DNA of 64,000 nt. It comes from Ceratodon purpureus (lineage: Eukaryota > Streptophyta > Bryopsida > Pseudoditrichales > Ditrichaceae). Of the stretch, positions 22,091-57,935 are shown one piece after another (the first letter of the stretch is position 1; each line of letters starts with the position of its first letter). The position numbers and the translations under genes were made by a program. The stretch spans positions 2,382,150-2,446,149 of the forward strand of contig CM026432.1 of the NCBI GenBank assembly GCA_014871385.1, given 5' to 3'. The notes under the pieces were generated by a model. That model was not told where the DNA came from. It did not search any database and saw only the letters and a program-made list of their open reading frames with translations.

Positions 22091-23104
22091 TGTGTCATTT
22101 AATTTATGGATCAATACATCACTCATGTGTCATTGAGATCAGTTGATCTGATTCTCTAAAGTTACTCTTCAATACCTAGATCACAAGAACTTTCAAATCA
22201 GTAGCAGAAGTTGGAATACCCGTGAACTCACAAGTGGGAATGGTCTCTTAACCCTTTAGTGCCCAGCTCCTTTTGGGAGGGAGGTCTGTTTTTCCGACCC
22301 TGGCTGCGAAATTCTTCATCTGAGTGTAGACTTTCGGTTTTTTGGGAAATCTGAGCCGACGAGTAGGTTACCAACTCGGTTAGGTTCAGAAGTAAGCAAT
22401 GTGTTTAGAGTGAAAATGCAGATATTAGTGGAAATTGGACTGTATTTGACCTGTTTCGAAATGGCAATGTGTGCACTACGGTGAGAGTGCCTTGGAATGG
22501 CACAGCCATTGTGGATTCGGAAAAATTTGATAAATCTTGAAACAACAGGACCTGACTCCCAACATACATGAAGAGGCAGCCAAAAACAAAGCACTTCAAA
22601 AAAAATTTATCTCGAATTGTTATTGAATTACGAACTGCAATCTCCCAGGCAGGGATACGGTTCAAGTGAAACTTATACCCTGGAATTTCGTGGAACAATA
22701 TAAGTCCACACAAAGATCTGAGCGGTGAGTCTGAAGAGTTTCACATGGAGAATAAGAGGAGACATCGCTCACTCACAAAATCTAAGCCCATTTCTGATAA
22801 TGCACCCTAATACAGATTAGACTGTGTACACTACGAACAGGAGCTGCATTTCCTTCCGCCAACACGAACAGCCAAGAAAACGAAGACACGTGTCTCTTCT
22901 TTCCCGGAGAGAATATGAACAGCCACACCCCAGCCATTGGGAGCGACCAAGGGTGCGAGAGAATGTCTGGGAGCGACCACCGCCTGAGAGAGCGGCAGTG
23001 CTGGGAACCTGATTCAGCCTGGGGGGACCCGGGGAAGTTACAGGGCCTTGGCGGTTGGGGAAGTGATGTCCCTTTCAGCTGAAGGCCTAGCACGCAAGTT
23101 AGTT

Positions 23105-23129
23105 GGGGGGGGGGGGGGGGGGGGGGGGG
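23105..23129 (+). repeat. 25 bp poly-G run
   Basis: Twenty-five consecutive G lie inside the piggyBac element, within the probable downstream part of its accessory gene. The run could form a G-quadruplex and is prone to length change and sequencing error. Confidence 0.9.
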
Positions 23130-23430
23130 AATATGTTTAGACTATGGGCAGAGTCTATGAGCAGGAAGTGGCTTCAGAAAAGGGGGAAGGGCTGTCACGG
23201 CTTGTTCCCCTTGCGGTGTGCATCCCCTGCGAAATTGCAAACCCTGAGGGTGCTCAACCCCAGGGACGCTCACAGCTACCTGGTCGGATTCATTTCCCCA
23301 GAGAAGGGCGGCAATCATCTGCCGAGACAAGACGGGGGAGGTCAGGAGTGGAGAGAGAGTGTACGGTGATGCGGAAGGAAATGATTCAAAGTTTTGTTGC
23401 AATGGTGAGGGTGAAGAGAAGAGACTCACC

Positions 23431-25981
23431 TATGCCGTACTGCGCCTCCAGGTACTCAAAAACTGCAGCCATGTTCTCCCGGCAATCATACAAGTCACTA
23501 TTGTCGGTGTCGCCTCTAGGGGGGAACCCTGAGTGCTGGGAGTCGAGAGTGGCCCCCGACGTTGACTGAGCAGCACGCGGGGGGGAGGTGTTTGGAGCTG
23601 CGGCAACTGAGGTCGGCCCCTGCACTATTGCTTGGGTCTCGGGGCGAGTTTCCGCGCTGCAACTCTGTACAGCATTCTCCACTACGCGCAGCCACTCCGC
23701 CGTTGAGGCAGAGTGCGGGGGTGGCACCGGCGCCCGGGCTGCGGCAGACTGCGGGGGGGAAAGCGGGGCAGGGGCGGGGGGAATGCTGCCCAACGTCTCC
23801 GTCTTCTCGTCATCAGCGGAACCCGGGGCGGAATCCACGACTTCAGATGGTAATGGTGTGGCAGGTAGAGGGAAGGGAATGCCGGAGTACCACTCCATCT
23901 CCAGACGTTGGACCTCTGCACCGACGCTCCAGTGCCACTCCGCGCCAGGGACTAGCAAGTTCAGAAGAAAGCGAGGAGGAGGAAGCTCCTGGGAGCTTTG
24001 GCGGCGCCACTCTTCCACAGCGTTTAGCCATGGTGCCAGCTCCTCTACGGAGCGAGGGTGCTTGGCCACACCATCGCTATATCGAATGTCGCGAGGCATT
24101 CTGGAAAAGGGGGGCTTCCTGGGGTCGGCAAAAGGGTTTGGAGATGCCGCCGCCGGGTCGGTGAGGCAACAGTCTCTTCTCCGGGGGAACTCTGGCCACA
24201 GAACACATCAGAAACATAAGTAGAGTTTAAGATTTCCTACTCTAGAAGCAACAATGGCATATTTAGAATGAATCCTTTACAGTTTAGTAATGTTCAAACT
24301 GTGAATTTAGTCTATAGGCTCACTCGAAGATTACCAGCTGAAACCGTGTAGCACTAAGGCTGTAACTGTCGTGAGAAAGCGATTACCAAAACTTTCTATC
24401 TAACTAGTCCCCCACAACTCTGCTCTTGGAACAATTCAGTCCTAGAATGGGATACTTCAGTTCCCATATCTAACAGACCTGGGAAAAATTGTAACCAAGT
24501 CTTAATTCTCGCTTGAATCCAGAGTAAATGCTATATAGACGGTCGCATCTCCCAATCCTCCAGAAACAAGCTAGGTCACATAATTAACAACAAAGTCGAT
24601 TGGTTCACTAATTCCGCATTGATCAACTGTTCATCATCTTATAAAAAAACAAGAAAAAACGCGAAGTAGTGTTAGATGAATTTACCTAAATATAATCAAT
24701 GGTGGCCGTCCGAAGTTAACCTAGGTGTCGAACATGCATTGGAGGTTTCCGTAATAACTCTCAGTTGTTAATAGAACTCTTGCATCCTTCCAAATGCTGT
24801 GAATCCAGTGGTTAATCCCCTTCTGCCACTATCGTCGTGCCGATTGTAAAGACGGTCTCGTAAAACCAAATCGCTGTTGCAATACCTGCAAATGAATAGT
24901 AGAATGAGATTATTTAGGCGAGTTCGAGAGTTGGAAGGTTACATTGTTGGTCACAAGCTGGAAGGAAAATTAACTGGAGCTAAACTTTCACGGAAGCAGG
25001 GGAAGAAAAAAAGAAATAACAAGGAAATAACTTGCACCAAGATTCAGCTCTTCTTAGGACTTCTAAAATTCTAGTGCCGAAGAGGTCGAGGCGCAATATG
25101 AAATCTAAGAGCACTGCAAAGCGGGGATTCTGAAAATGAAAATCTTACTCTTGCAAAAAACCGAACAACTGATCACCGTTTGGGAATGAAAATGTCCAAA
25201 GCCCTGCGATTCATGCCCTCTCATAGCCAAACCCCAGACCCTGCCAATATCCTCATAACATCATACCAACACGGCCTCTCACAAAACTCGCATGATACAC
25301 TTTTGAGAAAGATTCAGCACACGAAGTCCTGTTTGGTACAAAAGCACACAAAAGCCTCGCTCTACACGATAGCTCCGCTACTGTCGCCCGAGAGTGATAC
25401 ATCAAAAACCCATCTCATTACACAATGTTCAGCCCATCACGATCACCCTCCCTTAACATACACGAAGAAGTTAACCTCATTTCCACTACCAAGTCATTTA
25501 CTGAAACTCACACTCCAACTCAAAACCCAATACTCATATCACAAACCTAATGAGAACGAGAATTAAACGACACTGAAACCAGAATAAAACCAGCTCCCGA
25601 CCAGCCACTGCCGTAGTAACAACCCAGCTCCGATCTACTCACTTCTCCACACCCATCCATGCCATAACCATGTCCCAGCGTCCAAACCAGCATCGTAGAA
25701 GAACGAGGGCTTGCTACAAACCCGGACAGAAACAATCATAAACCCCGAGCAAACAGAGAGGAAGGAGACGAGAAGCGGTACCCGGAAAACAAGCCCTGTA
25801 GTGATCTGCTGAGGGAAGTTGCCTCCTGCTCCGCGCAGCGAGGGAGCGCCTCCTTCAGCGCACTTAGGTGAACGACCCCAGTACCGAAGCTCCCGACTGC
25901 CTGAACAAGGACAGAAGAACCACCAGCAGCACGGCAGTACAGAGCGGAGCGAGCAAAAAGAAATAGAAGCGCAGGATCCAT
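23431..25981 (-). CDS. putative piggyBac-borne accessory gene, downstream of the transposase (unknown function)
   Basis: Two stretches look like exons. A first exon may start at the ATG at 25981 (MDPALLFLFARSALYC) and runs open to about 25785, near a GTACC donor. An internal exon covers about 24192-23431; it follows a good acceptor (TTCTGTGGCCAG), stays open for about 254 codons, and ends in EYLEAQYGIG just before a GTGAGT donor. The internal exon encodes a WHWSVGAEVQRLEMEWYSG block, then a Pro/Ala/Ser-rich acidic linker, then a block with NMAAVFEYLEAQYG. I recognise no domain. How the exons join, and the last exon, are not resolved. GC content is like that of the transposase gene. It could also be a captured host fragment or non-coding. 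Confidence 0.4.
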
Positions 25982-26715
25982 GCCTCGACGCAAAGTAAGG
26001 AAGACGTACGGTAATAGGATTAAGCAGCTATAGGGTGGAGGGAGGGGGCAACACGTACCTTGCATGCAACTCAGGTTTTAGGGTAGTGATGACCATAATG
26101 AGCCAACAGTAAAGAGAAGTGACATGTTACTTCAAAAAATAATTAGCGGACTTTATTAACAAGGGATTAGGTGCTTGCAGCTACAGATGGAGGGGGCTAC
26201 GAGTTGTCCTATGCGGGCCCCCCTAACCTATGACTTCCAACTGACAGAGACTCCCCCGGATCCGCGACATTGAAAAGAAACGTGCCCCCCAGCCACTGAC
26301 TTAGACAGAAAACTCAAGGTCGGTGCCGGGAGAATTCAAAACTTGAAGTTGCATGCCAAGGCGACTTCCATAATAGCCGGGTAAGGGAATGAAGCACCAA
26401 ATCCAAAGCACGGCTCACATGCGACCTCCATGATTAGTCGTTGGCATGTTTGCGCTGTCTCTCTTGCTGCTCGTCATAGATTGCCCATGTCTTCTGCCTG
26501 CGGGGCAGAGATCAAATGTGAGACAGAAGTGCAACTTACAAGGGACAAAATCAGATGATAAGAGATTTGCTTTAGGGTCCAACACACTGCAGTTGGATCC
26601 AGAGCGGCGCTATAGCAGAGATGTTAAAGTCTCGTACCTCCAGCGGTGCATCCAGCGCCGGAATCCAGGCTGGTCGAGCAGCCTCTTCCACTCTGCAAAG
26701 GAGAAGACGCAAGAG

Positions 26716-29592
26716 TCATAACAGGGCACTTCCGTGGAATTCAAGAAAACATCGGCCAGGGCACATGGAGCGCAGACGACATCCAGGGCATATCCAAAAA
26801 GTGCGAATTTTGCACACCCTGCATCGTCTACGCAGGGTGCCTCTGACGCTGTGACAGGGATTGGAGCGCCTTGTCGGGGTGGGGGCGGGGCTGCGGTGTT
26901 CGCTGGCGGTGGTTGCCCTGGTGCGAGAAGGAGGACGCGGCCCCTGCATGTCTCGGAGGGGAGCTGAGGGCTCACCCTGACTGGTACCATCCGTTCCTGT
27001 GGAGGGGTGACCTCGCGGGGGTGAGGCGGACCGGGGAGCATCAGGCAACTGTTGAGGTATCTCGCAGGCCAGGCCCGCGAGGGGTACCTGGTTCACGGAT
27101 TCCTGCGAGAGGATTACAATCTCCGGGTTCCCAGCAGGGTCCTCGTCGCAGTTAGCTGCGGTTTCTTCAGCCACGTCATGCATACACGATCTCCGAGCAG
27201 CAGGTGCGGAGCTTGTTTCACCGACTAGAGGACACTCCATTAGCCCGTGAGCCAGCAGTAGCATGAACTGCTCGTGATCCATAGGTTTCTGGTCGAGTTG
27301 TAGAGAGATATGCTTGTACCGGAGGTATGAGTTGGTAGTAGCCGAGTCCAGCCCGAAGTAGAACAACCTGTGCCACCACTTTTTAGTGAAAATCTGCGTC
27401 GTGTAGGCCGCCCTGAGCTGGTCTTGAGTGTCAACCCCCCGCATGGTGGCGCTGTAGAGCTTCTGTATTGGAGTTGTTGGTATCTCAGACTTGCCGCCAC
27501 TGTGATGCCGTGTGACTGTGATGCCCCCCTTCACCATCGGATCCGCAGCTGTAGACAGGAAAGCGACACCTTTAGTATCTTGCCAGTGTATGGCCGCCAT
27601 GGTCCGTTCCCTATGCACTCGCACTTCCATGTTGCCCCTCGGTGTCTTCTCCGGCACATGCAGACTCGTGGGGAACCCCACACGCCCTTGCCTAGCTGTG
27701 CCAACCGCATAAAATCCTCTGCGCAACAGGTCTTCGAAGAGCATAGGACTGGTGAAATAGTTGTCCATGGCCACTGTGTACCAGTGACCCTCCCAGCCAT
27801 TAGTGAGGCGCGACACAACACCCGCACCTGCCCCGCAGGCGTGTACTGGAAGCCCCGCAATCTTTTCGTTGGCAGCTCCAACGTACACCTCGAGATTCAG
27901 GACATACTTTGTCACTGAGCAGCAGAGACACCACACTTTGATTCCATGAGTGATCGGTTTGAGTGGAAGGTACTGTTTGAATGAGCAGTACCTTCCGTTG
28001 TACGGCACCATGGACTCGTCGACGCACATGAATGGTGATGCATTCCATAGGGACTGAAAATTCTTCACCAACGTCTCCAGAAGCCAACGAATTTGCTGAA
28101 TGGGGTCGTACCTCGGGTCAGGCTTCTCGTACTTGAGGGCACTCTTGGAAGCCACATGCAGGCACTGCAGAATGTACAGAAATCGGTTTCTTCGCATAGT
28201 CCCAGCCACGGGCGGGCAGTGAAGGGCATCACTCTGCACCACCCAGAAATCACGAACCCGTGGCTGGTTCCTGACAGCCATTAGAATGCAAATTCCAAGC
28301 CACTGTCGATGCTCCTTCAATGTGATCTTCGGCTGAACATCCTGCCCCCCCTTCCTCTTTCCTGTTTTTGGGTCCACCCAGTCTGCATACGCGTTGGACT
28401 CTTTCACTATCCTCCGCTGAATTGCCTCGTTCCATATGTCCAGGAAACTCTCAAGTGGGGAAATCGGCTGCGAGTAATGAATTTTGGAGCCCTGGGGGGG
28501 GCCTGTGAATTCATTTCGTGGATGAAGGCTCCAGGTCTTTGAGTGCCAGTTCCGCTCCTCGTACCGAGATTCGAAGCGCCCCTCCTCTTCGGTACAGGGT
28601 CCCGCAGAGTACTCCCCTAGCCCGGCCAGAACCCCATGGATGGGCTCCGGCCCGTCTTCACCATCCGACCCACTGGAGAACTCACTGCCAATGCTTGGGA
28701 ACCCTCCATCCCCTCCACCGCCAGCCCCTTCTCCTGAACAGGTAGAGTGCGGGGTCCAGTCCGGGTCGGACTCCTCGGCAATGTCTCCCAAGAACGTAGC
28801 CACACCCGGGTCAGTGGACGCTCCCTCTGGCGATAACCGGATGCCACCCCCCCTCCTATGCGAGTCAAGGTGCAAGTCGGCTGCGGTACAGGGCATTGCC
28901 TTCGCAGTGGCGACCCTCCGCTCGAGGGCGATGACTTCAAGTCGACTTGGGGGACTCGGCACCCAGGGAGAACAGTCCACCTGCTTCACTGTCTGAACTC
29001 CGAAGTACGGCCCAAAGTCCACCTCAAAGCAAGGACATCCCTCAATGTCTATACACATCCCAGTGACATCACCAAACACGGTTTGACACGGATTTTCAAT
29101 GGACTCTCCCCCCCACTGCATGTCTACAATTTTGATTGTAATTTTCCTTAGACTTTTACCTTCGAGTGACATCTCGGTCAAGTCGTCCATGATCACTCTG
29201 GTCGGGGTTGGTTCCGCAATGCTCGCCGCCGGGTCCAGAAAATCGGATGGCTGCAGCTCCTTCTCCAACTGCCCCCTTCGAGCAGGTACCTGTAGCACCT
29301 CCTCTGATGAGGCACTTGCCCTCACTCGGGTCCCTGCCGTGCTCAACAGGGCGTGTGCACGTGCCAGCTCTGAAGCACCCCCGCCAATGCTAACAGCCTC
29401 CCCTGTTGCAGCGGAGCACCGCAGGATCCATCCCTGTTATTTAAGTTCACATAACCCGCGCATGCAACATTCCAAACTCCGACACAGGCGATTCAGAATT
29501 CAAGCAAAGGCCGATGCCACATGCAACCTTCACATTAAAGCATGCCCCCAAATTCACTAAGCATTGGAACTTACCAGGTACTCGAGTGCCAT
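26716..29592 (-). CDS. piggyBac transposase (DDE_Tnp_1_7 family), about 911 aa, two exons
   Basis: It cuts and pastes the element at TTAA sites in the nucleus. The proposed start is the ATG at 29592 (MALEYL), with donor after 29575 (CTG|GTAAGT), acceptor before 29433, and one 2.7 kb exon to the stop at 26716. The triad is present: CVDESMVPYNGR (D near 28019), YTVAMDNYFTS (D near 27763) and MRGVDTQDQLRAAY (D near 27436). The spacings of about 85 and 109 residues match those of piggyBac (78 and 101). The C terminus is the cysteine-rich zinc-binding domain, VCKIRTFWICPGC through CPGRCFLEFH. The N-terminal 250 residues are acidic and low in structure, as in the family. No stop or frameshift is seen. 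The first exon is small and its start is the least certain part; the downstream exon is open anyway. Confidence 0.9.
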
Positions 29593-30060
29593 TCTCTTCG
29601 CCGCCCTCACACCCTTGCTCACCCGATGCCTGGCCCCTCATTTTAAATAAACAGCGTCGCAATGGGGACCCGGGCTGCCCGTCTTTCCCAGCGTTCCTCC
29701 TGGTTTGGGGTGGGCTGTACCGACCGTAGTGGAGGACAACCTCCACTTGCCCCTGTGGTAGCACTCCATCTTCCAGAGCACGATCTGGTGGTGCCTCCTC
29801 CAGCGTCGGTGTGCCTCCTCGTCCCCGCCCGGCACTGCCAGGCAGTGCACCTCCTGTTCTCTGGGGTCGGACACTTCCCCGCAACGAAGCCCCCCTTGTG
29901 GAAGCGCCTGGCACATGTGTGCCTTCCCCCGCATCGAGAGCTTGCTGTCCCGACTGCAACGCCATATCGTTGAGCCCACTCCGACCCGTTTTACCACCCC
30001 GGCCCCCTCGCTCACCCATTCCACGACTTGCCTTACCCCGCACCCCCCCTGCTTTCCTGT

Positions 30061-32065
30061 TCACCGAGGTGGCACCCGATTCATGGTGTCCACCGTCTCC
30101 CACCTTCCGCTTCCCTTTCCCCCTGCTCCCCCCCCCCCCGAATTTAGGCCAACCTCAAGTATCACCCCCGAGTCAGAGGGAACGTGCTCTCCTATTTCCC
30201 CCTGTAACTCCATCTCCAAGTCGTTTGTGAGCTTGTCCAGCATGGCGGTGACTTGCCCCACAAATGACACCCCCCCTTCGTCGGTGTTCCTCCCAAGTGA
30301 CTCAGTTTTGATCTTCCTCTCGTATTTTCGAACAGGCTTCCCAGTTCGTTTGCTGATCTTCACTCCTGGGGGGAATTGTGGCGTCGAATCCTCTTTGCCC
30401 GCTGCACTTGCCTGTTGCAGCATCCGCTCTTGTTCCTTCGCATTTGTCTGCAGTACCCCGCCGCATGAACCGACGGCAACATCCCCCGGCTCAGAAGGTG
30501 TTCCCCTCCCGAGTGTACCAGCCTCTGGAGCCTGCGGCTGCTGCGCTATGTCCTGCCCTACCCCGATCTGGCATGGGCCACGCCCATGCCCTCCGTCTCC
30601 TCTATGCGTGGGTAGAGACAGTGACTTCTTTGGAGCTGCGCTCTGTCTCCGATTCAAATCCTCGAGGGGTACCCGGTCCCCTCCACCCTACATCACATTC
30701 CTCTCCCGCTCCTCAGCGACTTTCTCCGCCTTGACCTGAACCGACGACTTGTGGTGCGTCCCATTCAGAATCCCAGGCCCTGTACTGATCGAGTGAGGGA
30801 AGCTGCCTGCCACAATTCTGGATGCCTCTCCCATGCCTGCCACATGCTGTAAGCAGTGATTGGCATGGCACTGCCCTTCCCCTTCCGCAGCACAACATAT
30901 TGCATCACCTTGAACAGGATTCCCACCTTGCATGGTAGAATCATAAATCCGGGTATACTTCCTCCCGGATGGCTCTATTGAGGGGGGCAGAGAATCCATT
31001 CGCCGCACCCTCCTCAATATGATTCCTCCACCCCAGTACCTTCGCAGCTTGTCTCCGAAACAGGTATCGCAGCTGTCGAGGCTCCAACGACTCCCGATTC
31101 CCGCACCCTTTGCAACCCCGCGGCAATGGCAAACGCACCAGGTACTCACTCCGCAAAAGTGCGCACAGAACCTCCAACTTATGTCCCCGCGCCCCCTGCT
31201 GATGTCCCCATTCCAAGAGGATGCGGTGTGCATCGGGAAACGGGGGGGGCGTTGATGGTATTGTCGGCCACTGCATAGGCCGACCCGATTGCCTGGGAGC
31301 TCTGCCCACGATGGTTCTTGACGGAAGTTCATTCTCCATTGCATTTCCTGCAAATTCACCCCCTACAGAGAAAGAATTCCCAGCCAGCTTCTTCAGATTA
31401 CCATGAAACCCTTCTTGTCCCAACCCTCTGCCACAGCCGCCTACATTTAGAACGAATTGAACATAAAAGACAACCCCAAACTCCACGCAACATACCTTGC
31501 ATCAGAGCCTCTAACGTAGTCTTCGGCTGTAGCCCACTCCGGCGATTAATTCGCTGTGACTGCGCATCCGCCTCACGACCTCCTCTCCTGGCGTAACGCG
31601 TCCCCCATTCGCTGCCGTAGGCATCCGCATACGCAATCGTCCAAACGTCGTCCCTGGGGTCTTCCAATCCCCAGTCGCCCCCTTTCCCCATCGCTCCTAC
31701 CGAAACCTCGAGTTCCAGAAATCCCCTGCGAAATCCTGACAGAAACCTCAAATCCCCCGCAACGCATTTAATCCATGAGCTCCTCGGTCGCGACGCAAGC
31801 AAGTCTCCGCCAATCCCTCGAAACCCTCCCCGTCAACCAGACAGGGGCGCACCTCCCAGGGTTCCAGTTTCCAAACGCACACGAAGAGGGACGCCGGGTC
31901 GACCCGTGAATTGGCCGAGGCAGTTACAGAGAACTCTCGTTCCCACCCACGAGGACACCCCCGACGCACATATCTGGGAACACCCAATTCATTTTGTGGA
32001 ACCCCAGGACCCTTTGGTGCCCTGAGTACGTATGAAACGCTTCTTTCCCCTTTGCGATGACTCAT
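30061..32065 (-). CDS. putative piggyBac-borne accessory gene, upstream of the transposase (unknown function)
   Basis: Between the right end and the transposase, long minus-strand frames overlap or abut: 32065-31748 (ATG, MSHRKGERSVSYVL), about 31802-31497 (ends KTTLEALMQ before a GTATG donor), about 31440-30941 (after an AAATGTAG acceptor; contains LEVLCALLRSEYLVRLPLP and RQLRYLFRRQAAKVLGWRN), and 31359-30061, which is one frame interrupted by a single TAG at 30685-30687. The last holds a basic patch, KRTGKPVRKYERKIK, and a helix-like MLDKLTNDLEMELQ. The amino-acid make-up looks coding, but I recognise no domain. Exact splicing is unresolved. The TAG may be spliced out or may mean the gene is damaged. 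Confidence 0.4.
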
Positions 32066-32271
32066 CTTTAATACGGCGTCACAGTATAAAACGGTATTTG
32101 AGGGGTCTGTGAGGCTCTGATTCTTGTTTTTTTTTTTCGAGCATGCAGATCAAGTAAACCCCCCAATCCGTCCCGGTTTACAGATTTCCATTCGAACAAC
32201 ACCCTAGCCGGAATCTGGTTTCTCCATGCCCCAGCGACCAGGAAATGGTCTGCTGGGCACTAAAGGGTTAA

Positions 32272-48009: not shown

Positions 48010-48123
48010 GCGTTTTCTAGTCTGAAAGTCCAATTGGGTTCCACCAAAACTTTTGTTTCTTCTCTCCTCACATGACATTGATGTAGAGCTAAGATTGTGC
48101 TCGAAGTTGGTATTGAGTCGGAG

Positions 48124-49575
48124 ATGTCGGAGATGTCGGAGATGGCGGAGATGGCGGAGATGGCGGAGATGGCGGAGGAGATGGCGGAAGGTGATGGGAA
48201 TGCAGGGGAGCTCTCGACAGCGGTGCTGGCGATGAGCTTGGGGCATGGTTTGTATGGCATGAGTGGAATTGGCAAAACCGTGTTGGCGATGAACTTGCGA
48301 AACCGTGATTTGGAGGATTTGGAGGTGGAGTCGGATGGGGGAGATGAGAGTGATGAGGAGTTGATGGTGACGCTGGGGTTTGTGCAGCCTGTGGAGGAGT
48401 CATGGAAGATGGCGAGGCAGCAGTTCCCATGTAAAGTGGGCGGGACGCCGGCGTGGTTGGATCCGCTTAAGCTTCCGGAAGGGGAGAACACGCAGTGTGG
48501 GATTTGTGGGAATCCTCTGCAGTTTCTAGTGCAGGTGTACGCGCCGATTGGGGTGGATGATGCAGCGTATAGGGAGGAGGTTTTTCACCGGAGTTTGTTT
48601 CTGTTTGTTTGCCCCGACATGGCGTGCTTGCAGCAGGACCAGCATCATCAGCGGAAGAAACGAGAGGAGAAGCCGTGTAGGAGCGTGAAGGTGTTCCGGT
48701 CGCAGCTCGCGAGGACGAACCGGTTTTACTCGTATGAGCCTCCGAGTGCTGAGAGTGAGCCTGCGTTGAAGGGCGTCCCGGTGTGCACGTGGTGTGGGAC
48801 GTGGAAGGCGACGAGCAGGTGTGGGGGGTGTAAGCAGGTTAGGTATTGCTCTCGGACGCATCAGCTTGCGCATTGGCGGGCTGGGCATGACTCGTTCTGT
48901 CGGACTGTGCAAGCAGAATTGGCTGCCGGCAACCAGCAATCGGATTCCACCGCTACGGAAACGTTACAGAGCTCGGATGCTGGGCAGAAGATGGGCACTA
49001 GGGTTTCAGAGACGCCGCAACAGCCCGGGATCGCTACTGCCGCCAGTGATAAGCTGTGGCCTGAGATGGAACTGATTGTGGGAGAGGAAGAAGACAGCTC
49101 TCCGTCTGGTGATCAGGGCGTGTCAAACGACGCGCAGAAGCTGCTGGAAGATTACGAGACTCGAAGAGCTCAGAATGGTGAGGAATTTTCTGCTATTGAC
49201 ATGCAAGATGTGGAGGAGTCTTCGTTGGATCAGCAGCACTGGGCAGCGTTTCAAGCAAGGCTAGCGAGAGCTCCTGGTCAGGTTCTGAGATACTGTCGAG
49301 CTGTGGGGGCGAAGCCATTGTGGCCCTCATTGCAGGACCAGCCCAAGGAAGGTGATGTCCCTCGTTGTCAAAATTGTGGAGGCTCTCGTATGTTTGAGTT
49401 TCAGTTGCTGCCGCAGCTGCTGTACTATCTGGGCGTGCAGAACGAGGCGGACAGCGATTCCCTCGACTGGGCCACCATCGCTGTGTATACATGTGCTGCG
49501 TCTTGCAACAAATCGGATTCTAGCTTTGAAGGTTATGTGGAGGAGTTTCCATGGGTGCAGCTGGCTGTTACATGA
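48124..49575 (+). CDS. PDCD2: PDCD2 (programmed cell death 2) family protein, 483 aa
   Basis: PDCD2 proteins act as dedicated chaperones for ribosomal protein uS5 (RPS2) during small-subunit assembly, as established in yeast and animals. Single exon. The first ATG in frame is at 48124; six more in-frame ATGs follow within 57 bp because of a 9 bp repeat (MSEMSEMAEMAEM). The conserved N-terminal domain starts near LGFVQPVEESW, with GGTPAWLDPLKLP and CGICGNPLQFLVQVYAP. A MYND zinc finger spans about residues 221-259 (CTWCGTWKATSRCGGC, YCSRTHQLAHW, HDSFC). The C-terminal PDCD2_C domain has PGQVLRYCRAVGAKPLWP, CQNCGGSRMFEFQLLPQLL and FPWVQLAV. An extra N-terminal segment holds GMSGIGKTVLA, which looks like a nucleotide-binding P-loop. 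It is divergent from RAD4. The frame is intact. Confidence 0.93.
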   Translation: MSEMSEMAEMAEMAEMAEEMAEGDGNAGELSTAVLAMSLGHGLYGMSGIGKTVLAMNLRNRDLEDLEVESDGGDESDEELMVTLGFVQPVEESWKMARQQFPCKVGGTPAWLDPLKLPEGENTQCGICGNPLQFLVQVYAPIGVDDAAYREEVFHRSLFLFVCPDMACLQQDQHHQRKKREEKPCRSVKVFRSQLARTNRFYSYEPPSAESEPALKGVPVCTWCGTWKATSRCGGCKQVRYCSRTHQLAHWRAGHDSFCRTVQAELAAGNQQSDSTATETLQSSDAGQKMGTRVSETPQQPGIATAASDKLWPEMELIVGEEEDSSPSGDQGVSNDAQKLLEDYETRRAQNGEEFSAIDMQDVEESSLDQQHWAAFQARLARAPGQVLRYCRAVGAKPLWPSLQDQPKEGDVPRCQNCGGSRMFEFQLLPQLLYYLGVQNEADSDSLDWATIAVYTCAASCNKSDSSFEGYVEEFPWVQLAVT

Positions 49576-56425: not shown

Positions 56426-57006
56426 ATTTGAAGCAATTGAATTTTTCATTAATATGGTCTAATAAAAATTTATTGTCATTGAAATTTTTAATTGCCATAA
56501 TGAAGTTACTTCTTAATTTGGAATTTCTTAGTTTGCTTCATAAAAATACAAAATAAAAATACCTTTGAGTATATCTATAAATATTCATTTAAAGAACTTT
56601 TAGAGAATATTTAATAGATTTCAGATGTTGGAATGCAACAATTTCTTCAGAAGTTTAACAACCATGTATGGCAAATATCTCCATGCAAGACGATGATGAA
56701 TCTAGGCATCATTCATTATTTTCTAGATAAGTCATAGCATAATAGTGTTTTCCTTGTTCAAGGTCTCAAATTTAGATAGTAGATGATGTTTCTTAATCCT
56801 TACTACCTCTATTTTTAGGTATTAACATATATTTTCCAACTTTTGAAATTGTTGTCACTTCTATTTGCAATACATTTTCTATCATGTGAAATTTTCATTA
56901 TATATATTTTCAATAATTAGGCTTCTTTTCCACGTTTGTAACACTTGCTACTAAAGTTGTCACCACTTGTGTAAAAGACTTTTATTAACATTTGGCATCA
57001 TTTTAA

Positions 57007-57935
57007 CCCCTTAGTGCCCAAGAAAGCCAAAACGGCTTTTTGCTGTTTCGGTCAGTCTAGATAAAGGAGTTAAAATTGATATTTTTGCCTAAGATTTTTA
57101 CTAGATGCTCATTGTACTGCAAAGTGTATATGATAAAATTTGCAAAGTCAAGTTCCATTTTTAAGACCTTCATCTAAAAAATTTAGGTTTCAAGTCCAAA
57201 ACGGGCAGCTTAAAATTAGGATTTTTTTTTAAAAAAATTCTTGAAATATGTTCATAACCAAACCACCACTCAAATTCCAAAGAGACCCAAGTCAAAAAAT
57301 ATACCAATTTTACAAGGGCAGCATCTAAAAATTACAAAGACAAGCTTCAATATTTTCAGTAATTTTTGAATTACTTCTTTCAAAATTCGTCAAAATTTGA
57401 GATTTTGGAATTTTTAAAAAATAATTTCACCCAAAACTCAAAAACTTATAAAGGCACCTAACCACCGTTCAGATTTTTCTAAAACCAAATATACGCGACG
57501 TCATGCATGTTTTACTATATCAACGTTTTCAAACCTGCTTCTAGAAAACAATTTTTATGAGAGCCAAAAAAATGAATGAGTCTCTCAAATTTTCCATGGA
57601 GGTACTCAACTTGATTACGTACATGGGAAAAAATATGAGCAAAATGTTTGGGGTAACAATCTTCAACTCCCCCTTTGCACCATTTTGTCGGTGTCATTCA
57701 GCCAATGCCCAAAAAAAGTTTTGCTGCAACTTTGAATATTATAATCTCTAAGATGGTAAACATCCAACGGCTGAAAATTTTATCAATACTTATAAAGAAG
57801 GTTTAGTACAAGATCTTACGGCTAAATGTTTAAAAAAATAAATTTTGTTTGGTTCAAATTGTCATTTCTACAAGGTGGTTAAAAATCACTGTTTTGGAGG
57901 TTTTGAGACCCAAAACATGCTTGGGCACTTAGAGG
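57007..57935. mobile_element. piggyBac-type miniature element, copy 3
   Basis: 929 bp with TTAA on both sides (57003-57006 and 57936-57939). Left end CCCCTTAGTGCCCAAG; the inverted right end CCTCTAAGTGCCCAAG matches at 14 of 16 positions. It is the closest of the small copies to the 10 kb element, whose end is CCCTTTAGTGCCCAGC. It shares the internal TATAATCTC and GATCTTACGGCTA blocks with copies 1, 2 and 4. No coding capacity. Confidence 0.85.

Follow-up and report, generated by a model that had tools for sequence, protein, structure and literature searches.

The locus considered here raises two related questions: whether a land plant genome holds a complete piggyBac transposon of about 10 kb, as a preliminary description of the DNA had proposed, and what such an element carries in its additional length. 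The interval lies in a stretch of 64,000 nucleotides (the window, meaning the whole stretch analysed) from the moss Ceratodon purpureus, and it measures 10,016 bp between two TTAA sites (Table 1). The results make it quite probable that the interval is a single, un-nested piggyBac transposon from a clade that has multiplied in the moss, with a transposase core of three aspartates (DDD), frames upstream of it that include a region termed domain B, and a conserved second gene, ORF2. Judged from the sequence, much of the extra length is made up of 5′ transposase exons and the second gene.

The piggyBac transposons move by a cut-and-paste mechanism at TTAA through a DDD core, with a cysteine-rich tail reading the ends, and they are excised seamlessly through hairpin ends. 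The interval had been described as having perfect inverted ends of 16 bp with TTAA on both sides, and exact matching bore this out. The sequence CCCTTTAGTGCCCAGC at one end has its exact reverse complement at the other, and the 20-mer composed of TTAA and the terminal inverted repeat (TIR) gave two exact matches and one site with three mismatches in the 64-kb window, compared to none in 100 shuffles. A TTAA target with a short TIR beginning CCYT is the pattern of the piggyBac superfamily and was found here, where the ends begin CCCTTT; CCCTT is given as the most conserved end motif of animal piggyBac elements (PMC10813416).

The minus-strand open reading frame (ORF) at 26716-29346, of 876 aa, matches the Pfam family DDE_Tnp_1_7 at 6.4e-75 over all 349 profile positions, and it aligns with the structures of piggyBat (9c0f, 1.7e-26) and Trichoplusia ni piggyBac (6x67, 1.4e-24) with the three aspartates in register. 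In a six-row alignment (A2), the three catalytic columns are invariant. The claim of an open transposase frame with aspartates at family spacing is thus confirmed by the Pfam match and two piggyBac structures. The zinc-binding tail of the preliminary description is present as a cysteine-rich stretch, which aligns weakly with piggyBat when taken alone (2.0 bits) and at 6.6e-4 with a moss locus from a deeper lineage, L071. DDE_Tnp_1_7 was the sole family found in a Pfam scan of seven ORFs of the element. The ratio of nonsynonymous to synonymous substitution rates (dN/dS) for the transposase is 0.14-0.17 between the window copy and four other copies and 0.44 against the copy on contig C2, where changes are few. 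Collectively, the DDD core, the cysteine-rich tail and TTAA are shared with the superfamily represented by 6x67 and 9c0f, and by these sequence matches membership of the element in piggyBac is clear. That the host is a land plant, and the DNA no contaminant, also stands: the window is part of a 16.7-Mb contig (C12) of a 362.5-Mb genome in 151 contigs, and this genome gave 23 matches to the LOB-domain family, which we take to be confined to the lineage of land plants.

The main open frame of the catalytic exon starts with a possible splice acceptor AG (29435-29434). Further upstream, three frames termed C, D and E are joined into a single open frame in related copies, with 638 codons in C2, 607 in C9, 614 in C1, 519 in C4big, 604 in C3t and 597 in C5b. 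This exon is broken in three of the nine copies examined (the window copy, C7 and C4), and the window copy carries a stop and a frame offset that are both missing from the copy on C2, its twin at 98% identity. In six of the nine copies, but not in C4big, C3t and C5b, a GGTAAGT donor stands after frame E. An autonomous, intact element would have all its transposase exons open; in the window copy, on the inferred exon model, the transposase gene is broken. The "intact state" of the preliminary description is therefore not sustained, and the window copy probably cannot make a whole transposase because of the broken upstream exon.

Domain B occupies a separate frame further upstream in the window copy. 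In L071, by contrast, a single open frame of at least 1,041 codons contains both domain B (40% identical) and the catalytic core. As read from this frame, B forms the N-terminus of the transposase there, and it probably does so in the window lineage as well. Among 50 rows of domain B matches, 36 place it upstream of a listed transposase on the same strand and none in another arrangement; the other 14 have no listed transposase within 8 kb. The model of domain B is helical (mean predicted local distance difference test, pLDDT, 77; predicted template modelling score, pTM, 0.68), with the first 28 residues unreliable, and its folded part is basic, with an isoelectric point (pI) of 9.6. It gave no Pfam match, and its model had no significant match among PDB folds and viral folds. 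Summed over the open frames, with approximate exon borders, the transposase would comprise about 1,500 residues.

The second gene was searched with a 237-residue ORF (23386-24099), which gave 155 genome matches, with 150 scored of 1,609 candidates. Exon 1 of ORF2 ends in a GTGAG donor in all 10 aligned loci (GGTGAG in nine and AGTGAG in one), and the frame past this donor is not conserved. An alignment of 21 rows (A1) has 12 invariant positions, and no cysteine in it is invariant or nearly so. The exon 1 product is acidic (pI 4.6). Forty-five ORF2 rows were typed by context, and in every one of the 27 with a listed transposase within 6 kb, ORF2 is located downstream of the transposase and on its strand; by random placement this arrangement arose 0.2 times on average and at most twice in 500 trials. 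By dN/dS, ORF2 is under purifying selection: 16 comparisons with the window copy gave 0.16 (C2), 0.28-0.39 (11 others) and saturation (four), and eight closer pairs gave 0.16 to 0.55. For 28 of the 50 domain B rows, there is an ORF2 row on the same strand no more than 15 kb downstream, which argues that B, transposase and ORF2 travel together.

The window ORF2 protein had no Pfam match. A Pfam scan over the 21 ORF2 proteins gave two families with one member each, neither significant (0.058 and 0.084), and the ORF2 profile found no credible match among PDB sequences, the best being a designed protein at 0.02. A candidate acceptor for exon 2 within a conserved stretch was rejected, as its AG stands in CAG in the window but is replaced by CGG in several relatives; an acceptor further upstream is possible. 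In translated comparison past exon 1, several frames on both strands were conserved, and no coding frame could be selected.

Further copies with the same 16-bp ends, which the preliminary description had proposed to look for, are abundant in the host genome. TTAA with the 16-bp end gave 179 matches (90 and 89) at no more than one mismatch and none in the control; TTAA was built into the search patterns, so its presence at copy ends is not an independent test. Among 36 exact end matches, 28 were paired by position into 14 convergent elements, and eight were single. The 14 elements range from 925 to 24,929 bp, with sizes of 925-943 bp (five elements), 6.5 kb (one), 8.6 kb (four), 10.0-10.2 kb (two), 15 kb (one) and 25 kb (one). 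A sister end that ends in CAGG has 52 and 52 genome matches; many of these form pairs separated by about 1 kb, and some form pairs separated by about 15 kb. Along its entire length, the 10.15-kb copy on C2 matches the window copy at 97.7-98.5% identity, and because it shares the whole structure end to end, a nested insertion is ruled out as the cause of the length. All 15 fetched elements with both ends, the C2 copy included, have different flanks.

A genome search with DDE_Tnp_1_7 gave 998 candidates, and 116 of the 116 scored were above the cut-off. In a tree of 28 transposase rows (22 different; 26 from the host genome and two from animals), several deep lineages appear; the branches leading to the two animal rows are very long, and no placement is claimed for them. 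Comparison of the transposase alignment with the viral_contigs and genome_contigs collections gave no relatives, a weak test with viruses and prokaryotes. These copies bear on the description of the lineage as recently active and unusually large. Recent activity is plausible from the copies themselves: the two 10-kb copies differ by about 2%, but no empty site was found within the assembly, where the joined flanks matched only the two native flanks. Five miniature inverted-repeat transposable elements (MITEs) that were read are not fresh, three being 74-83% and two 90% alike. The lineage is indeed large-bodied and has many copies, but size alone has precedent, as animal piggyBac elements reach 9.51 kb (PMC10813416).

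Several observations concern related copies. Within the 15-kb copy on C4 (C4big), large frames that look pol-like by eye (L036, C4:9129864-9138863) split its domain B and are probably a retrotransposon insertion. Related elements at C3:4644371-4659582 (L039 and L040) and C10:5918491-5934375 are 14.8-15.9 kb long; they have CAGG ends and transposase frames of 955 codons, and the C3 element showed no ORF2. Contig C6 (110.5 Mb), probably a sex chromosome, holds 26 of 142 listed transposases (18%, from an incomplete census), although it makes up 30% of the assembled sequence. For C. purpureus, U and V chromosomes that exceed 100 Mb and represent about 30% of a 360-Mb genome have been described (PMC8000587).

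Near the ORF2-side end, the 11-mer TGGTCGCTCCC occurs twice, 30 bp apart, at 702/732 or 703/733 bp from that end in all seven ORF2-bearing elements with both ends. The pair, with up to one mismatch, was found in five of 11 further loci checked. It is missing from the five MITEs read, C9b and C3big, and C1b has one site with a single mismatch. The pair may be coding, because the 30-bp spacing preserves the reading frame, but the identity of all 11 bases suggests a role at the DNA level. A function as an end-binding site needed in cis is weakened by the five MITEs that lack it.

Table 1. Positions in the window of the features of the element
Feature	Position	Strand	Remark
TTAA target site, left	22248..22251	n/a	exact 20-mer TTAA+TIR match
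TIR, 16 bp, ORF2-side end	22252..22267	+	perfect; common to copies genome-wide
11-mer TGGTCGCTCCC, first of tandem pair	22939..22949	-	702/732 bp from ORF2-side end
11-mer TGGTCGCTCCC, second copy	22969..22979	-	30 bp away
ORF2 (accessory gene) exon 1	23430..24099	-	223 codons + one base, then splice donor GTGAGT
Main transposase open frame	26716..29436	-	906 codons + stop; DDE_Tnp_1_7 core and cysteine-rich tail
Cysteine-rich (zinc-binding type) tail	26734..26838	-	residues 837-871; aligned to piggyBat (weak alone) and L071
Catalytic aspartate 3, D639	27430..27432	-	structure alignment; invariant in A2
Catalytic aspartate 2, D528	27763..27765	-	structure alignment; invariant in A2
Catalytic aspartate 1, D443 of 876 aa ORF	28018..28020	-	structure alignment; invariant in A2
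Upstream transposase exon, frames C, D, E	29575..30994	-	upstream border approximate; broken in window copy
Frame of transposase N-terminal domain B	30944..31363	-	helical part ~30944-31258; tentative exon borders
Possible first exon	31496..31691	-	tentative; inferred to end at CAAG|GTATGT donor
TIR, 16 bp, transposase-side end	32252..32267	-	perfect; common to copies genome-wide
TTAA target site, right	32268..32271	n/a	exact 20-mer TTAA+TIR match

A fuller account can be offered tentatively, with chances we place a little short of even. The element would represent a land-plant piggyBac with two proteins, a transposase of about 1,500 residues with a new helical N-terminal domain and an acidic accessory protein of an unseen family, which selection would have kept together during radiation into large elements and MITEs, and the tandem 11-mer may be a binding or control site. 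Already on the simpler reading of a piggyBac with a conserved second gene, and by analogy with other piggyBac enzymes, the DDD core would cut at the ends and paste at TTAA, with the cysteine-rich tail reading the ends during transposition. The basic domain B may be an added module for binding DNA or a partner. The acidic ORF2 protein, largely without confident structure, could have an accessory function, binding to the transposase or regulating the enzyme or its expression, a part that second proteins play in several other families of DNA transposons; B and ORF2 might be in contact, or ORF2 might control the level of transposase. The window copy was most likely moved, if at all, by proteins of other copies, and transposition in trans presumably accounts for the MITEs, the short elements of 0.93-1.0 kb that share these ends. 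The chances of the fuller two-protein account as something novel are lowered by a report that the KolX-like proteins of piggyBac are themselves without most of the cysteines whose absence sets ORF2 apart from KolX.

Several findings weigh against both this account and the simpler reading of a piggyBac with a conserved second gene. The upstream exon of the window copy is broken, no transposase is listed within 6 kb for 18 of the 45 ORF2 rows, and only one of 22 weaker ORF2 rows has a listed transposase nearby. The ORF2 profile, applied to seven further elements, was clear in C4big and weak in C3t (E 0.0017, small set) and found nothing in C3big, C5a, C5b, C9b and C1b; with five of the seven lacking it, a relative can have near-identical ends and still be without ORF2. 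An ORF2-like domain (residues ~8-105, mostly 31-43% identical) is present at more than 80 further loci (e.g., L064-L068), and in the 8-kb contexts of two such loci (L069 and L070) no piggyBac transposase was seen; a kinase-like ORF and a Ty3-type gag lie nearby. The ORF2 model is poor (pLDDT 57, pTM 0.40), with helices in the conserved part, and fold searches matched neither it nor the domain B model to a known fold, so that the roles suggested for B and ORF2 are guesses.

Some of the same observations could be accommodated if ORF2 were not a separate gene but the 3′ exons of the transposase gene, included in a longer isoform by alternative splicing. The constant position of ORF2, downstream and on the strand of the transposase in all 27 rows that have a listed one at 6 kb or less, and the conserved splice donor, which indicates that the region is spliced, would both follow. 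This is unlikely, since the main exon has its own stop directly after the cysteine-rich tail, most ORF2 homologues read begin at an ATG in a common position with unrelated sequence before it, and even the closest copies differ in the gap between transposase and ORF2, which measures 1.2 to 2.7 kb. A capture of host gene pieces as ORF2 and domain B, with no role in transposition, would explain why neither matches any known transposon protein and why the ORF2-like domain is found at many loci, including the two contexts without a piggyBac transposase. We consider it improbable, as dN/dS stays far below 1 among copies whose dS exceeds 1, the order is constant in many divergent elements, and B is fused in frame with the core in L071.

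The element might also be an ordinary, recently active and fully intact piggyBac that is merely long, as its perfect ends, open catalytic exon and 98% twin would lead one to expect. The upstream exon that is broken here and open in six other copies, the conservation of much of the extra length as protein and the lack of an empty site in the assembly leave this reading a small chance. Kolobok elements likewise duplicate TTAA, and some of their lineages have a second protein (PMC9587614). The ends of the element start with CCC, not with the purine pair of 5′-RR...YY-3′ termini, and its transposase belongs to DDE_Tnp_1_7 and aligns with two piggyBac structures, which refutes a Kolobok identity and leaves it practically no probability. 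The reading of a single piggyBac with upstream frames and a conserved second gene is preferred over these alternatives.

Compared to the piggyBac superfamily at large, the element differs in its length of 10 kb, in its conserved upstream frames including the helical domain B, in its second conserved gene and in its host, a land plant in which 998 transposase candidates gave 116 scored matches. Well-defined piggyBac elements are about 2.5 kb, and the animal elements of up to 9.51 kb are described as single-ORF in the same paper (PMC10813416). A second protein in piggyBac has precedent: a few families are described as encoding a protein like part of KolX, which has seven conserved cysteines, but without most of these, and Kolobok lineages with accessory proteins are described as well (PMC9587614). 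Like both groups, the element is a transposon specific for TTAA with a second protein in addition to the transposase; compared by description only, ORF2 has no conserved cysteine whereas KolX has seven, and the KolX-like piggyBac proteins also lack most. Teratorn is likewise a large piggyBac with extra genes, CCYT ends and TTAA, of 180 kb and fused with a herpesvirus (PMC10175614); in the moss element, by contrast, Pfam found only the transposase family in the seven ORFs, and domain B had no viral fold match. Literature searches with partial coverage gave no description of the element, and its absence in print is not established; piggyBac in plants is mentioned in passing in a C-fern repeat table (PMC6890710) and a MITE superfamily list (PMC10004981).

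Two-gene transposons are familiar in plants from MuDR, En/Spm and PIF/Harbinger, which carry a transposase and an accessory protein and have short non-autonomous derivatives with the same ends. The element resembles them in both respects and differs in superfamily, target site and transposase. About 1,000 candidate loci for piggyBac transposases (998, with 116 scored), together with their deep lineages and the conserved second gene, would recommend mosses for studies of piggyBac evolution, and ORF2 and domain B represent two protein families without match in the libraries used. As the superfamily is widely used in genome engineering, the question arises whether an accessory protein affects rate, target choice or self-control.

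Two further features lie elsewhere in the window. A third end-like site, TTAACCCCTTAGTGCCCAAG at 57003-57022, has three mismatches and may mark one end of a more distantly related piggyBac. The ORF at 48097-49575 has PDCD2_C and MYND finger domains and is probably a host gene.

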